Source: Styela clava (Eukaryota; Chordata; Ascidiacea; Stolidobranchia; Styelidae). From it: a stretch of 64,000 nt of DNA. Where the stretch lies: assembly GCF_964204865.1 (NCBI RefSeq), contig NC_135251.1:15624001-15688000 (forward strand), in the 5' to 3' direction. A program made the translations under genes and the position numbers. Within the stretch, counting starts at the first letter, position 1. Each line of letters opens with the position of its first letter. Positions 29,063-40,210 of the stretch are shown in pieces. Below the pieces are notes generated by a model. That model was not told where the DNA came from, did not search any database, and saw only the letters and a program-made list of their open reading frames with translations.

Positions 29063-30995
29063 AATTATGCCTCAATGAATCAGCAACATATTCCTCACTG
29101 GTGGAGTTATCCTGTTCAAGTTCCAACTTGTCATTCCTATTATCAGATCATTTATGAGGGTGTTATTTAGTATGAAATTTATTTGCACTATGAAAAGATG
29201 TTTTGCCCTCTGGTTTATCAGGAATGTGGAAATTGTTATGATGTAACTGCCGTATCCTACTGTTCTACTGAATCTTTTTGTTTTGCCATATTTTTCAAAC
29301 TAGCTCTATTTAAATTACCAGTCATTGCTGTACGAGTAGTAGTCAAAAGTTGTAACTTGTAGGTATGTGGATTAATGATGATAGTTCAAAATATAAAACT
29401 GTTCAGTCTTCTGCACTCTCGTTTCAATTGACAAACATGTTTCAGAAGGTAGCAGGGTTTCATTGTTAAACAAACTGATCATGACGTCTTCAACAGGTTT
29501 GCCAACCAGTATTTTCTGAGTTTGGGTTGATATTCATTTTTTCATTTTACCTTTCGGAAATATGTTCACATGCACGCAGGTAGACTGTCTGATATGTAAT
29601 AAAAAAAAATTGGCACCGGGTGAAATTTTTGTAATCTTTTGGGCAGCTTATTGTTTTGAGGTTCAATTTCTTTAGTACCCGATGGACTTTTATTCAATCA
29701 CACCAATATTTATCACCATCACCTATTTATCAGTAACTGTGATATTATCCTGCAGTTCTTCTGTTGCTAGCAACTACTGTACAGCTTATCATCTGCTTCC
29801 GTCACCCAACTTCGCCTTAATTTAATTGTGGATTGATATATTGTCTTTTAGTTCATTCCTCACACTTGCTTCTCTTTAAGATATCAAGTCAGTTTAAGTT
29901 TGAGAAGTGCATGAGAGAGGGGAGATATTTATCATTTTATCCACCAAAAAATAGTCATTTAACAGAAATAGAATAGTTATGGTAAGGACAAAGCGGTATG
30001 TTAGTCGTTGGGACAGAGGGAGCGTTGTGGTCCTCGACTTCAACACCCACCATAATTGTGTGGCGTGATTAGGATTCACATTAGAGATGACTAAGTTCTG
30101 GGAAATGTTAATCAAGTAATATTTTTTAAACAACAAAATATGTATTCTCAGATAACTTCATATTGGGGGATTACACAATTAATTTCTATCGACTTTAGAC
30201 AATGGTAAATAATGATATAAAACACATTTAATATATGCAAAAATTACGCCGGTCCTAAAACAAATTGCAATGTGCAAGTCGAAGAAACTGTATGACATGG
30301 GCTGGCGATAATTGTTAATATACAGTGTGTGATGATGGGAAACTGAAGTTAGCAGAAGTTGTTGGGAAAACCATCATTATCGAATGCCCGTTACCCCGAG
30401 TGGGAGAATTGACGTTGCGTCTTACAAATATTCGCTACAACTTCCATTTTTGCTGATAAATAATGCTGTTGGATTCTGAGTGCAGCCAGACGAACTGCCA
30501 TTGCTCGTCATAATGTTGGTATAAAGGAAAAGATTAAATTTAAAACCTTCACTGTGTCGTTGATCGTGAAGCATTGAAATCGTATTGAGCATTTAGTTTT
30601 TGTCCACTGAATACCAGAGGAAGCCAATGGTTCTCAAACTTTTCCCAAAGGCGCGTTGGAAAGAAAAGTAAACTTTATCAAAATTACTACAACAATAGAG
30701 AAGATATTCATCATTGCGGTACAAGAGCTTATTTGATCATTTTATGTCATGTTTTCAATTATGTACGTTTTAAAAACCTTACCGACGGTTTTGATTTCTC
30801 TCCTGATTCTGTCTGCAGTTGAATTAACCTTGTACTAGTATTTTTTTCAAGAAAAAAAGTTAATTCTTATCGACGAATATAGTTTGGAAACCACTGCCTT
30901 GAGGCTTTAAAAGGGCTCGTCGGTGTTCTTCTTCGATTCTGGTAATGCTGTTCGCTCAAAAATCATCGGAGCATAGCGTACGATTTCGCCTTCCG
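29063..30995 (+). other. SARS1 3' UTR and SARS1-ALAS intergenic DNA
   Basis: No gene seen. An AATAAA at 29598-29603, 536 bp after the stop codon, may serve SARS1. The only other structure I recognise is the short hAT-like element at 30625-30896. Confidence 0.5.
30625..30896. mobile_element. Short hAT-like MITE, 272 bp
   Basis: The left end CAATGGTTCTCAAACTTTT and right end agtttggaaaccactg are inverted, the common CAGTGGTTC type of hAT end. No clear target duplication. It ends about 100 bp before the ALAS TATA box. Confidence 0.7.
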
Positions 30996-31003
30996 TATAT
31001 AAG
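30996..31003 (+). promoter_or_regulatory. TATA box of ALAS
   Basis: TATATAAG about 500 bp upstream of the start codon. Usual TATA spacing would put the transcription start near 31024-31032, i.e. at or just before the candidate iron-responsive element. No transcript evidence is available here. Confidence 0.5.
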
Positions 31004-31027
31004 CTGATCATGATTCGCCCTGAAGGT

Positions 31028-31052
31028 TAGTTCGCTCTCAGTGTAGGGCAGC
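31028..31052 (+). promoter_or_regulatory. Candidate iron-responsive element in ALAS 5' UTR
   Basis: A hairpin with canonical IRE architecture. The hexaloop CAGTGT (31039-31044) is closed by a five-pair upper stem (gctct 31034-31038 with agggc 31045-31049). An unpaired C (31033) lies exactly five pairs below the loop, then a lower stem of at least three pairs (31030-31032 with 31050-31052). Iron regulatory proteins bind this structure near the cap and block translation when iron is scarce. From memory, the IRE of human ALAS2 reads gttcgtcctcagtgcagggc; the sequence here, gttcgctctcagtgtagggc, differs at three of 20 positions and keeps every pair. It lies in what appears to be 5' UTR exon 1, ending at the donor g|gtaagg (31131/31132) and joining the ATG exon at 31458. 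Confidence 0.75.
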
Positions 31053-31497
31053 CTTGAATGTGTCACAGAATCGCAAGCTCGTTTGATTTTTGAAGTTGAC
31101 CTTTTCCATCATCCGCTTCCTACTATCTGAGGTAAGGGTAAATTTATGTTCTGTTCATTTAATAGTTGAGTTATGTTATGAAACAACTTATCTTTTTTGC
31201 AGCCAATGTTAACTGTTAAACAGTTAGCCTAAGTTATAGTTATGTTTTGTACATTTCTTTTTTTCAGAATGCCGAAATTGGATTGATAACCTGAGTGGAA
31301 GACATGTTTTAGATATTATTTTATAAAGTTCTTATATATTCATCATGGTCTCAATACGTTTCCCATCAAATATTCCCTGATAAATATGAAAATCCTGTCT
31401 GCTCCAAACATAGTCTACAAAGACCAGGAGACCTAATTTTCAATTTATTTTTCTCAGATTTAACTGTAAAGGTATAACAGCAAAACAAGTCATAAAC

Positions 31498-34400
31498 ATG
31501 GAGACTTTAGTGAAATGTCCATTTCTGAAAAAAGTACCAACCACCTTTCTACAACGTGCTGGGAACTCTCTAGCCATTTATGCGGATAAATGTCCAGTCA
31601 TGACTGAGTATATGGCTCGTTACTCTTCAGTGATGAGTGCAAGGTAAAGTCTGAGAGTTGAATTTGTATGCAGATACTCAGTATTTTCATGGTGTGGTAA
31701 TATGTTTATATACTGATATATGCTTATTTTTTTTTTCAGAATGCATTCTACCTCATCAAATGATGGAAAAGATGCTGGAAAGCCCTACCTTGTCGAAGGT
31801 ATATTTTTTCATATTACTATTATAATAATAAATTAGATACATAGACCTATTTAATCTGAATACTAATTGAGCTTTAGAGCGTTTATTGAGACTTGAAACT
31901 TGTATAAAATAAATAAAGTTCTTCACTGATTACATTTTTTTCTGGATGACACATGAAATTTAGGTGTAGTAGGTATTGAGCTACATTGTATGAATCAAAT
32001 CAAAAGCTGTCATCCAGTATATCTACTGTCTCAATTTCTAAAATACCATTTTTTAACATTGGCGACTTTAAATTTTGTTTAAATTCATTTTGAGCAATTT
32101 CACCCTCAAAAGAGGTGTTTTATTTGATCATATGTATTGATTTATTGTGTTATTATTGAAGCTCATGGCAGTGAGAAATTGGTAACTCAATGCCCATTTT
32201 TGGGATCAACTGGAAATCAAGGATTGGCAAAACAAGCAAGTGTACGAATGCAGGTATGTTAAAGTATTATAATAGCACAATTTGTTTTGTGAAATTAAAT
32301 ATTGGATGCTTGATGTACAGCATCTGTAACGATTTTTTAGACTTCTGGTCTGGTGTGATTTGTTTATAACGAATATTAAGACTATTGTTACTTTTGTACT
32401 TGGAATAATAGTCAGTAGTGGGAAGGCAGCATTCATCTCGACTTATATTGTCTTTTGTCTGTAGGAAGATATTCCTGCTTCGTCTGTTTGTCGTGGACAA
32501 CTGAAGGTTGATCTATTGGATGCAGTTGAAAAAGAGAAGATAGAGTATAATGATGTAATGGAAGGTGGGTGTCAGATTTATTGGAAAATAGATTGGGTAT
32601 CATATTGATATAATTTTTTATAAAATAAGGCTTCAAAATTTTATACTCTTATAATACAAAATGTTTCTTGATCTATGCTTTCACTGATTTTTAAATATTT
32701 TTATTGTTCGCATGATTTTCTGTGCTGTATTTGAACTAATTTCTACCTTGTCTTAAATTTAAGTTTCATTTTTCTTAAGTTCAAATTTTTTTCCATTTTT
32801 GTTATTGATATAATGAGGATTACTTGTTTGGATTTTGTAATAATATTTGTTTTTGTTTCAGTAAGAGAGGATGGGCCTCAGGATCTGCCCAATCAAGTTC
32901 TTGGTGCCATCCAAGATGCTGCTGTTGCTGTGCCACCAGCTGATGCCATGCCACGGGAAACTGTCAATCCTGTGTCCGATGGCCCGAGTTTCAATTATGA
33001 TCTGTTTATGGAGAAAAAAATTCAAGAGAAAAAGGAGGATCATTCATACCGGGTGTTTAAAAAGGTATTATTTTCCCGATTATAATTCCTATTTTTGCTT
33101 CCCAAACAAGTACCAAAAAATCCGAATTTAATTTACATAAAATACAGAATTCTGCAATCTAATTTTTTCAATTTTACAGGTGAACAGGCGTGCTGATACA
33201 TTTCCGTATGCTGAGGATTATAGCGGTAGTTCACAGGCAATGTTCGGTGAAACTGGTGATGGAGAAGAACCTCGGCGCATCTCTGTTTGGTGTAGCAATG
33301 ACTACTTGGGAATGAGTCGTCATCCTCAGGTTAAAGCAGCTATTGGGTAAGCAGTATTAACTGGATTTCCAGTAACATTTTTGTGCAATTATTTATAAAT
33401 GGAAATTTTTCATGATAAAATAATGATTTCCATGTATATCTGACTGTGTGTAAATATACCTGTTATGATATCGGATTTTGATTGCTACTTGTGAAATTCT
33501 CTGGGATGGCACAAATATGCTGCTGAAATATTTACCGTAACTCGTTTTTGGATTGGAGTGGTTCTGGTCAATTGAACATTAAATTCACACATTAATAGTT
33601 TTGTGCGAGTTGTAAATTCCTAAACTGAACATAGGATTTAAATATAATTAACCTCTGTTGATCAGGAATTATATTTCACTTCCACTTCCGCACAAACAGC
33701 AAATCTAGTGAGTAATCAATTCATCAGTAGTTCTGATAACAAGCACTTTTGTTACTATTTACTTTAACTTAGTGTTACCAGATTTAATTTGGTAATACAG
33801 TTTCTGATTCCTAAATAAAAGTTAATTCTGAACATATTGCTCTTGTTCATTTGTATAAAATTATTAACAGTTCAGGTATTGAGAAACCTTATAATTTATT
33901 GATTTTCTTACTTGCTACCAAGATTACATTCTTAGTTTGCCATAATCCTTTTGATAATTTAGTTTTACGTATCAGTATGACCTGGCTTTATTGTGGTAGT
34001 ACGCCCGCCGGCTATTTTTATCAAACAATCACATAGCTTTTGGTTTATATCTCCACAATATGCGGCATTACTTTCCGACATTCCAAACTTGCAATTCCTG
34101 TCGTGAGAAAGTAATCGATAATTTTACAAATCATCTCGGCAATTTTTCCATTCAAACAATAATGTAAAATGACGTAGATGCGTTAATATAATTTCGTTAA
34201 TTTGCTAAAGGAGTGAGACTAGCTTCTTGTTAATATAATTGTTTTTATCAGTAAGTGTTTCCTAACTTGACTTTAAGAGTCTATATAGCGATAAAGAAAA
34301 CATCTTTTACTTTTGTTTATGCGGTTCCGCGCACACCGATTGAGTTTAGAATCGTTTTGCTTATTTATGTTGTGTGATTCTTATTTTGAGTGAATTTTTA

Positions 34401-37400
34401 TAAAAGTCTATTCCGACACACTGAATTGTACTCCGTGAACAACAATGGCGTTTGCTAATTGCATGCATCACGTCAGGAAGATCAATAGATTTTGACGTTG
34501 TGTTCCACTGTGTTATCGCCTTAAGAAAAGACAACTCCTCAACAATTTAACAAGTTTATTTTTAAATATTATTGTTGTTGTTATTGTTACACTTATAATA
34601 TAGATATTGCGAAGTTGTGATCCGTTGACTGCCAACGATTTATTCACTGTTATTTGTCTTTTGGTATAACCCAATTCGTTTATTTTCAGAGAAACGCTTC
34701 GCAAGTATGGTGCAGGAGCAGGTGGAACCCGCAACATTGCTGGTACTTCATCTCTGCACGGAACGTTGGAACGAGAGCTAGCGGATTTACACAACAAACA
34801 ATCCGCACTCTTATTTTCGTCATGCTTTGTCGCAAATGATTCGACTCTTTTCACCTTGGCCAAAATGATACCTGGTAAGTGCGAGTTCACATATTGGTAA
34901 ATTCGTATCATGGGCTTGGCGTATGAAATTTTAACGTTCTTCAATTATCGGCTATATTTTGAAAATTGTTTTTACTCGGATGTTGTTTTACTCGGATGTG
35001 AACTGTTCGGCCTCGATTCTCGACGGATTGAATTGATCGATCATCGTTCATCGAGCGTCATTTTCAATATGACGGCCATTTATTATCGAACAACATTCAG
35101 TGTTTAAATATACGTCCACTGTATAAAAACTCGACATTTTTTACATGCTAGCTTTAAACCAGTTTTTATTCGCTGAAAGTTGAGGTTTTTTGACGCGACT
35201 GAATGAGCCACCCATATATATGTCAACTACCAATTCTGATGCCTGAATTCGCGTGAGAAGCTTCGGAATGCATGTCGGCATCAAGTTGCATTATTGTTGT
35301 CACGCTCGTACGATTATTTAGGTTTGGAAAATTACCTATTTTAAAATTCGATCTAGGGTAAAGGTAAGGTCATTTATAGCAGTATCTGAAAGAATGATAT
35401 TGATTTGCTTATATAAGCGACTGCCCACCGCTTAGATCTTGCGAAGATATTTAGAAAATTTATTGATTTACTTATGCTTTGTATGTAAACCGCATCCAAA
35501 ATAGCTTCATAAATATCGTCCATTACTAATATAATCACTGATAGGTGATAAATTATACGATAATTGTTGGTTACTGTCAGATAGTACCTAATTGTTAGTT
35601 TTTGCCTGGGGCATGTCCAAATCCGAAAATATTATTTTCTAGAATTGTGCTTCGTCATTGATTATGGTTTCAAATAACGGGGCTTGTTTTACAACGAAAT
35701 CATATTACACGTCGAAATTTGCATAGAAAAATATATTTTTGAATTATATGAACTTTTAACACGTTCATTAATAGCATTTGTTTAGAGTTTCGTCGTAACT
35801 TGATCATACTTTGATCATCATTTGATCATACTTACCGGTACCCACATTTTGCTATTTTATATCGCGTGTTGTTCCACATATCACCTTTCTGCTAATCTAT
35901 TCATATATTTGATAATCATAATGTGCATTCTACAGGATTAGATTAGTAATACCAACGGTGACGCAAACGTTTTAGATAATAGTTTATATCAAACTGTATT
36001 TCTGATAACTGCATTCGTCATGCTATCGTGCAAATCTCGTCATGCTTATTTGAAATGTGTATCATCGCGTGGATGTTAAGTTGAGTATGAATATTGTTCA
36101 TACACGCCTCATATTACTTAACAGTCCGTTCATTTATCATAACGCACTAAACAACTGAGTAGTATGCTTTGTTAATTTATGGACCTTTTGTACCTCCTCA
36201 GTCGATCTTAGTGTGTTACTAAATGTAGATTCTCACCTTTGTTCTCAAAATATTCGACTTTTACACGTTAAATTATGACCTCAGTGCTTATTATATTATC
36301 ACGAGGCTGTATGTTTATTGAGACAAGTGGTTTATTATTCTATTTCCGTATTATTACCGCTTTATTTAAAAAAATTCCACGTAAGTCACTTATGACCGTG
36401 TTTTAGTACGTTATGCTCCATTAAATACCAAAAGATTTGAAATATTTGCCAAAACTACCCTTTTAAATTCAGAGTAAATCTTACTTTATCCGTAAGCCAA
36501 CGTAAATATGCACCGTCACGCTGATATTTCTCGTAATGCAAACATGAACACGCTCTGCAGATTTTGAATAGACTGCAGTTGCGTTTTCCTAAGACCGAAC
36601 TTTTGGCATAGGCAATGATTTTTAGAGTGCCTAGTTGTATGCGACCAGTCGCCGGCCGTAGATAAGATTGCACTGTTGTATGTTCTACCGACGTTCCACA
36701 GGGTCTTTATCATAAATTTAAAATATTCACTGGTTCTTATTAAATCATTTTAGTGAAGTTCTGATTTTGGAACTACTTAACATTCCGTGAAGTAGAATTA
36801 AAATCATAAGCTCGGTTTCGAGATCGAATGTCTTAAAGGGTGATATTTTTACTCCGCTACGTTTTGCGAGCAACTTTTCGCACCCTTTCCAAGTAGTAAT
36901 GATTTCCCCGATTAACAAGCCCGATATTTGACACCTGATGCGATGAGAATTATATTGACATCACCACCTGGCGCCTGTTTGCTTATTTATATTTTACGCA
37001 GAGATGATTTTGCCGATACAAATAACAAATAAATGGCATTTTGGGTAACCGAAAGAAGTACACAATTATGTTTACTGGTAACAGGACCCTTTCAATACCC
37101 ACGTGTTTTTGTAAATTGTTTGAAAATGACAGCTGTGTTCTTAAGTAAGCGATCGTCCGGATAAATTCTTGTCATCTTTTGTCTAAATTTAAGAAAATCA
37201 GCAACCTCGTTAAAATGCTCAATACGTTTGGAATACCCCCACTTTAATGTAATAGTTTTCTATACTATAGGCATCTATTGTTGACAATAATAATATATGG
37301 TATTTTTATTTTTTGCAATGTGTAGTCAAATTTTTTTTTTGCGTTATTTGCAAGTTTTAGAAGTCCAACGAATTTCGTTAATTCGGTTACTTGCGACTCA

Positions 37401-40210
37401 AATGACAAATAAACTGGGTAAATACGACATAATGGGTGGTGTTTACCTGGTACTACGTTGTTGATTCGTCGCGAGGACAAAGCCTGAAGATACGGTTTCA
37501 TGACTTGCAGAAAGATTTGAAGTGTTTACCATTTGATCGATCATTTTTGTCATTCATTTTATACTAACGTGTCGATTGATTACGTCATCCCTGGTGGCAT
37601 CCTTTCCTCTCACATGGTATCTGTCGGTTTTGTCTGATTCTCTGCCTTTTTCAACAAATCTTTTTAGAATTTTCGCTCGGGTTTTTTATCTTTTGTTCAC
37701 TTGTACGGAACCTCGTGATAGTTGTAAAAGCCGTTTTTTTCGATTGCGCTACGGTTTCGTATAATGACAGCTTTCAACGTAACGTCGTTTAATTTCACAT
37801 GACGAACAATATTCAATATACCTGGTTTTGTTAAGCGCTTACATAAATTACAACGCAATATTGAACATGAATCACAATTTACGTTCGTTTATTTTGCCTC
37901 GGGCCTTGTTTTTATAAAAGTTATGCAATCTGAAAAAATGTAAACTTGCTCTGCGAGTTAAATTACTGTAAGTACCGATAGATATATAAAACAGAGCCGA
38001 AGCGGAGGGTTTTTTAAAAAAAAAGTAGTTATTTAGGATGAAAATGCGTTGTTAATTGCATTTAATTTGTTTCTATAACAAGTTATATGTCGAAAATTTT
38101 TGCTCAATTTTAAATCAAATGTTTTATATAGTTTGTTTTGCGTTCGTGCATCCTAACCGCAAATAAGGAATCCTTCCTGTGTACAATGATCGGCACTGTT
38201 TATTGTGAACTTTCGCAATGCGAGTACATAGTCATTGGGGTCAAATAAAATATTGTATTTTGAACGACTCTTTCTCTATACGCAGAGAACATACAACTTA
38301 TTTGTTAACATATGAATCAGGGTCATGGTCCGATTCGCCGGAACCAGTCGCGTAACAAGTGTTTATACTGCTTACGATTAGTCTTCTGATTTTGGTTAAC
38401 TTTACTGGACGACAGTGTACACAGCACATAATAGCGGTATTTATCCAGTTCTGAAATTATAGAAATAATTTTTTTTCAAGCTTATTATTTTTTTATCAAA
38501 AGGTTGCGAGTTTTATTCTGACGCTGGAAACCATGCATCGATGATTCAAGGGATACGTAACAGTGGAGCACCGAAATACATATTTAGGCATAATGATCCT
38601 GAACACTTGGAGGAGCTATTGAGCAAGGCGGATCCGGCCACACCAAAAATTGTTGCTTTTGAAACCGTACATTCCATGGATGGTAAGTTTTATCATATAT
38701 TAGGTAAATGACATTTCGTTGTTGGAATTGGGATAATCGTAGGGACAACCAGTCAGCTTTTTCAATTAAACTAATGAAATTGTCCCTTGTCTTTCAGGCG
38801 CTGTCTGTCCATTGAAGGAATTGTGCGACGTGGCGCATAAGTATGGGGCTATTACTTTTGTGGATGAAGTTCATGCAGTAGGATTGTACGGAGAGAGAGG
38901 TGGTGGCATCGGCGATCGAGACGGTCTCATGGATCAGATTGACATTGTTACGGGAACACTTGGTAAGTTAGGTCCATCTATGTTTTGTGGTCATGAATCC
39001 GTTCAGGGTTATTGATAATGTGCATTTAGGAATATTTTGATGTATTTTCTCTGCAGTTGAGCTTTCGTATTGTATACCTTGATATGATACTATGTGACTC
39101 GTATCCTTTTGCAAAGTGTCCTAGATTTCTGAAACTTTTGAGTACAATCATGCACAAGCAGAAATTAGAGTTGAATAAATTTTCTTCATTTTCGTTGGAG
39201 TAATTGAGAATTGTATGGGAAGGTTGTCCGCGCAGAGTGACTTCACGCCTCCGTCTTTCTGGTAGTACAAACGCTTCTCCGTCTGGTGGGAATGTGCAGC
39301 CTGCAGAGCAATTGCACGCCTCTGTTTCTATCCCACGAGGCAGCTCAAAGGTATTCTATTCTCAGTAATATTTTATTGTGTTATTTTTTTTTCAGGGAAG
39401 GCTTTTGGAAATGTTGGCGGTTATATTGCCAGCACAAGTGCTCTGGTTGATATGGTACGAAGTTATGCTGCTGGGTTCATCTTCACTACTGCCCTACCTC
39501 CTATGAATCTTGCCGGTGCAATCACCGCTGTGAGATTACTAAAATCTGATGTTGGCGTTCGTCTACGCTCAAGGCACCAACGAAATGTCGCTCTCATGCG
39601 TAGGATGCTGATTGCTGAGGGACTACCGATTGTTCATTGCCCGTCCCATATCATTCCTGTCAGAGTAAGTTAACTTAACTTATAATAGTAAATGAATAAA
39701 CAATACTAGACTATATTAGCTGTAAATACAGTACATTGTAACATTATTTCCATCATTTTTAAGGTTAGTGATCCCGAGAAGAACACTCAACTGTGTGACA
39801 TCTTGTTACAAAAGTATGGCATCTACGTCCAAGCCATCAATTATCCGACGGTGCCACGCGGAGAAGAGATGTTGAGAGTTGCGGCTACCCCTGGTCACAC
39901 GGTTTCTTTGATGCAGTGAGTAAAAACTCTGGTATTCCTCGTAGTATATCTTGAATACTTCCTAAATGCTAACTAACTGTGTCTCTGTTGTAGGTATTTC
40001 GTGTCCAGTCTGGCCAAAGCTTGGCGTGAGGTCGGTCTGGGGGATCAACCAGCCCACCAGACGGAGACGTGTTTGTACTGCCAGAAGCCTGTCCAATTCG
40101 AGCTGCTTTCAGCGCGCACTCGCCCAAAGTTGATCACCGTACCACACGGATGTGGAACCCCCGTTCCCTCAATGGGACCCACCAAAGAGCCGCCAACTAT
40201 TACGGCATGA
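31498..40210 (+). CDS. ALAS: 5-aminolevulinate synthase, mitochondrial
   Basis: PLP enzyme that condenses glycine with succinyl-CoA, the first and rate-limiting step of haem synthesis, in the mitochondrial matrix. Coding exons: 31498-31643, 31740-31798, 32162-32253, 32465-32564, 32862-33064, 33180-33346, 34690-34874, 38503-38682, 38798-38962, 39396-39664, 39764-39915, 39994-40210; all in phase, giving 644 residues (human ALAS1 about 640). The presequence carries three Cys-Pro haem-regulatory motifs: KCPFL (Cys7), KCPVM (Cys32) and QCPFL (Cys79). The catalytic core starts near [11 protein letters not shown] and includes [42 protein letters not shown], and [11 protein letters not shown] with the PLP lysine near residue 434. 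The C-terminal extension has [12 protein letters not shown], as in animal ALAS. Only one ALAS is in the window, so I do not assign ALAS1 or ALAS2. The 5' UTR holds an IRE-like hairpin. Confidence 0.97.
34875..38502 (+). other. Large ALAS intron (3.6 kb), no insert recognised
   Basis: By far the longest ALAS intron. Unlike other long introns here, I see no transposon ends, inverted repeats or exons in it. Acceptor tatcaaaag is unusual but phase-consistent. Confidence 0.5.

Follow-up and report, generated by a model that had tools for sequence, protein, structure and literature searches.

A probable ALAS2-type iron-responsive element at the predicted 5' end of a tunicate ALAS transcript

We find a hairpin on the forward strand of the window (the whole stretch of 64,000 nucleotides of DNA analysed here) that is very probably, judging by its sequence, a genuine iron-responsive element (IRE) in the ALAS mRNA, predicted to sit right where the transcript of the single ALAS gene begins. 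It occupies positions 31030-31052, where the window reads GTTCGCTCTCAGTGTAGGGCAGC, and such a cap-proximal element would most likely repress ALAS translation at low iron. An earlier note on this DNA had proposed an IRE of the vertebrate ALAS2 type in the ALAS leader; this reading is supported by the sequence, the loop, the bulge, the spacing, the gene, the strand and the likely distance to the cap, as well as by the presence of an IRP1-type gene and an ACO2-type IRE in the same genome. The parts of the hairpin are as follows.

31030-31052, forward strand: probable iron-responsive element of the ALAS2 type, GUU C GCUCU CAGUGU AGGGC AGC, assigned by sequence, covariance models and comparison with human
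31033, forward strand: unpaired C8, from the predicted folds of 30- and 34-nt pieces
31039-31044, forward strand: CAGUGU pseudo-triloop (C14 to N19), from sequence

According to Volz 2021 (PMC8466369), an IRE is recognized by a C14-G18 contact across the loop, A15 G16 U17, U or C at position 19, a bulged C8 and an upper helix of five base pairs; SIREs 3.0 (PMC12230718) lists an N7-N25 pair with a lower stem. In the ALAS hairpin, CAGUG at 31039-31043 supplies C14, G18 and the three loop bases between them, N19 is U31044 and C31033 is the bulged C8. The upper helix GCUCU/AGGGC consists of five pairs (34-49, 35-48, 36-47, 37-46 and 38-45, given as the last two digits of 310xx), one of which, 36-47, is a U-G pair. 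N7-N25 is the pair U32-A50, from which a lower stem of three contiguous pairs (32-50, 31-51, again U-G, and 30-52) extends; below it, A and C at positions 29 and 53 are unpaired. Relative to ALAS, the element is in sense orientation and precedes the ATG. The exact IRE pattern that had been claimed for it (unpaired C, five pairs, CAGTGT loop, lower stem) is thereby confirmed from the sequence, with the qualification that the lower stem is weak.

Compared with the human eALAS (ALAS2) IRE, as quoted in PMC12845348, the hairpin at 31030-31052 is identical at 19 of 23 bases and therefore differs at four; within 31031-31050 the count is three differences in 20, two of them in the upper stem with pairing kept, exactly as the earlier note had stated. 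The other two of the four differences are C to U at N19 and U-A to U-G in the lower stem, so that every one preserves either pairing or a pyrimidine at N19. Shared with the vertebrate ALAS2 element are the loop CAGUGY, C8, five upper pairs whose 3' strand reads AGGGC, the start of the lower stem (GUU/A-C) and the location in an ALAS leader. Unlike its human counterpart, the tunicate lower stem ends after three pairs and is weaker, a gap of about one base separates the hairpin from the predicted cap, and the host gene is unduplicated and retains three N-terminal CP motifs of the ALAS1 type.

How much of this likeness could be due to chance depends on the scale considered. For the loose core C-N5-CAGWG, 26.6 sites would be expected in the window and 25 are present, so the core alone is uninformative. 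Five upper pairs are present at only two of the 25 sites, and at one of these two N19 is G, which is disfavoured. In 8 Mb of sequence simulated with a Markov model there were seven sites with five upper pairs and N19 other than G, and two that additionally had at least three lower pairs, corresponding to about 3e-5 per 103 nt. On both strands of the whole genome we found three sites with no more than three mismatches to the human 20-mer (two forward, one reverse), where about five were expected, and one match to a reversed control pattern; among the three, only the site in the ALAS leader keeps five upper pairs (pairs read by eye). For a leader of 200 nt, 1.4e-6 such sites would be expected. 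A site this close to the human 20-mer is thus unremarkable genome-wide, but its presence in the ALAS leader is unlikely by chance. The near-chance genomic rate would suit the view that the resemblance is accidental, or that the bases serve only in DNA, as part of the core promoter between the TATA box and exon 1, without a role in RNA. We consider this very improbable, given the tiny expectation per leader in the very gene known for such an element, and given that the structure is preserved by each of the four differences from human. We rejected the possibility that the leader derives from a repeat, as 30990-31131 has just one match in the genome.

We also searched with covariance models, a check named in the earlier note. 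Our model covers 23 positions and was built from the human ALAS2, ACO2, ferroportin and ferritin IREs together with the ACO2 hairpin described below; its E-values are rough, having been obtained with short calibrations. In the window, 31030-31052 ranks first with 23.4 bits (E 8.7e-4), the next site reaching 13.3 bits, and in 511 bp around the ALAS leader its E-value is 7e-6. When human ALAS2 was left out of the model, the hairpin was still first in the window, at a weaker 17.2 bits (E 0.035; next 12.0). Rfam reported no IRE in the whole window at the IRE_I gathering score, and four matches at E up to 10 within 30900-31300, none of them an IRE. This would again fit a chance resemblance; however, Rfam also reported no IRE in the leaders of ACO2 and ferritin, and since it missed the ACO2 hairpin as well, little can be read into its silence. 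A search of the whole genome for RF00037 returned nothing, with no positive control detected either.

The following promoter and leader features surround the element.

30996-31003, forward strand: TATA box (TATATAAG), its first T 33 bp before A31029; placed by motif position, function presumed
31027-31033, forward strand: initiator-like TTAGTTC, with A31029 as the likely transcription start; placed by motif position
31029-31131, forward strand: likely non-coding exon 1 of 103 nt, with donor GAG/GTAAGG at 31131/31132; from sequence
31058-31093, forward strand: predicted upstream open reading frame of 11 codons (MCHRIASSFDF), immediately downstream of the hairpin and within exon 1

We take TTAGTTC to be initiator-like on the basis of the initiator consensus. 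The TATA box, which had been placed within about 35 bp of the hairpin, is indeed found at that distance, and together with the initiator it suggests a cap near A31029, one base before the hairpin. Candidate starts of the second exon lie at about 31203, 31268 or 31458. Tunicates use spliced-leader trans-splicing. This raises the alternative that an inherited IRE is absent from most ALAS mRNAs, through a downstream start or through trans-splicing, and is inert or confined to a minor transcript. The position of A31029 lends this some weight, since a downstream shift of only a few bases would cut the lower stem. We nevertheless hold it to be improbable: exon 1 ends in a strong cis donor, and a sequence so close to the human one implies that selection has long acted on the RNA.

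A retained hairpin might also act as a brake on translation independently of IRP, through its position at the cap alone or jointly with the upstream open reading frame, and a cap-adjacent stem followed by such a frame is what this mechanism would need. There is hardly any likelihood in this explanation, as a stem of about -6 kcal/mol is weak for blocking unaided, and the loop and C8 match contacts of IRP that a plain brake does not require.

Predicted folding of the leader RNA varies with the length of the piece considered. A 30-nt piece starting at A31029 folds as an IRE with -6.1 kcal/mol, and for seven of eight nascent lengths from the same start (30, 35, 50, 60, 70, 80 and 90 nt, but not 40) the structure of lowest energy is the IRE. 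Compared with shuffled sequences, the 30-nt hairpin piece has no excess stability (z -0.11, versus -2.38 for a human piece whose flanks are partly provisional). The same holds for a longer piece beginning upstream, in which the upper helix is kept, AAGGUU pairs with AGCCUU and C8 falls inside a 5-nt bulge. For the complete exon 1 alone, an alternative fold is preferred by 5.4 kcal/mol, and the upper-stem pair probabilities are 0.01 or less for all 11 start points tried; this preference is a further point for the chance or promoter explanation. Joined to second exons at 31203, 31268 and 31458, exon 1 shows an IRE gap of 0.0, 0.0 and 1.5 kcal/mol, respectively, the IRE fold being of minimum energy in two of the three spliced leader models. 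As predictions, these folds neither prove nor exclude an ALAS IRE.

In the same genome, aconitase matches fall into two loci. The gene on C17 is of the IRP1 type, its best PDB match being rabbit IRP1 (3sn2); its protein model, with exon joins trimmed by eye, lacks two stretches. We compared 17 residues that we take to be RNA contacts of IRP1. By eye, 15 of them are identical (R269, S371, N439, N535, R536, R541, S681, P682, R699, R713, R728, S778, R780, D781 and W782), and the two remaining changes, K379R and R732K, are conservative. The second locus, on C16, encodes mitochondrial aconitase in an uninterrupted open reading frame of 788 aa, which finds its best PDB match in 5acn. Two ferritin genes were found, a conventional one on C14 and a second, divergent ferritin-like gene on C3 (L014/L015). 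Hairpins were assigned to two of these genes.

L019 6634-6656 (G000:C16), minus strand: ACO2-type IRE spanning the start codon, C UUUGU CAGUGA ACAGA AUGGCG, assigned by sequence pattern
L012 3485-3507 (G000:C14 ferritin leader), minus strand: ferritin-like IRE candidate, CCC UGG GUCGU CAGUGA ACGAA C GGG, from a relaxed scan

The ACO2-type hairpin is very similar to the human mACO IRE as given in PMC12845348. It has the same architecture as the ALAS hairpin in the same genome, but spans the start codon, whereas the ALAS hairpin is predicted to be cap-adjacent in a long leader. Its predicted stability is -12.9 kcal/mol (3 of 200 shuffles were as good), and it scores 29.6 bits with the model that includes this hairpin itself. 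In the C14 ferritin candidate, UGG replaces UGC, position 8 is G and a G-A mismatch occupies the base of the upper helix; it scores 16.2 bits (E 0.13) with the IRE covariance model, and its predicted fold has four upper pairs only. IREs with G8 are described in brachiopods, annelids and arthropods (PMC8466369). A strict pattern search for a CAGUG-loop ferritin IRE on the gene strand, over 19.8 kb from each of the two ferritin genes, gave none. A CAGAGG-loop hairpin near the C3 ferritin gene was set aside for its G at N19 and its single lower pair.

The gene behind the leader was assembled as follows.

31498-40210, forward strand: ALAS coding region, 12 exons, 644 aa, spliced by hand

The first 572 aa of this model match the structure of human ALAS2 (5qqq) with 2.7e-187. 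Three N-terminal CP motifs (KCPF, KCPV and QCPF, encoded within 31498-31740 and 32162-32253 of the window) appear, from their sequence, to resemble the haem-regulatory motifs of the ALAS1 type. No second ALAS gene was found in a search of the 376.6 Mb genome. At E up to 0.001 this search gave 15 matches, 11 of which belong to the gene in the window; the other four, short pieces with 28-49% identity, were considered as a second ALAS and taken to be enzyme-family relatives.

Exons found elsewhere in the same assembly indicate the lineage. On one strand, about 1.8 kb apart, a GT2/cellulose synthase-like exon is followed by a GH6 exon (L026 5332-8273, G000:C9), a candidate fusion. A fusion of CesA and GH6 is not known outside tunicates, and these exons would point to a tunicate genome. 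A search of the assembly for mitochondrial COX1, aimed at reading the mitochondrial code, found none. The single ALAS locus and the CesA/GH6 exons, which are typical of tunicates, support the proposal that the control predates the vertebrate split into ALAS1 and ALAS2.

The idea of a pre-vertebrate origin is not new. Our literature search found an earlier treatment of invertebrate ALAS IREs, Tzou et al. 2014 (PMC3904948), which reports high-quality IREs in ALAS 5' UTRs of one tunicate (one of two chordate leaders) and of the purple sea urchin (one of one), as well as medium-quality ones in a sea anemone (one of one) and the honey bee (one of two arthropod leaders). Its authors suggest that the common ancestor already had an IRE, and they credit the Ciona ALAS IRE to Piccinelli and Samuelsson 2007. 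Like the elements predicted there in Ciona and Strongylocentrotus, the present hairpin belongs to the 5' UTR of an ALAS gene that is single and predates the duplication. The present account differs in describing the context at chromosome scale, the IRP1 gene and a likely cap site. The interest of the present element lies in its close match to human, its likely cap-adjacent position and the fact that the same genome contains an intact IRP1-type gene as well as an ACO2 IRE.

With the hairpin as an IRE at the 5' end of the ALAS mRNA, its action may be pictured as follows. At low iron, cluster-free IRP1 would grip C8 and the loop bases AGU, and, being bound at the cap, would block loading of the small ribosomal subunit, so that no ALAS is made. 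With ample iron and Fe-S clusters, IRP1 would turn into aconitase and release the hairpin, and ALAS would be translated. Haem would act separately via the three CP motifs near the N-terminus, which are of the haem-regulatory kind. In this way a single gene would combine iron control of the ALAS2 type and haem control of the ALAS1 type, which were later divided between two vertebrate genes. A more far-reaching proposal, which we offer tentatively and regard as unlikely, is that iron control in this genome has shifted towards the iron users: ALAS and mitochondrial aconitase have canonical C8 IREs and ferritin a drifted copy, the single ALAS would be the main target of IRP1, and it would preserve the undivided iron and haem control from which the vertebrate ALAS1/ALAS2 split arose.

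The hairpin would add a further near-human ALAS IRE outside the vertebrates, in a gene that also bears haem-regulatory motifs. It supports the view that haem synthesis was already under iron control when red blood cells and the ALAS1/ALAS2 duplication arose, and that this duplication divided two older controls.
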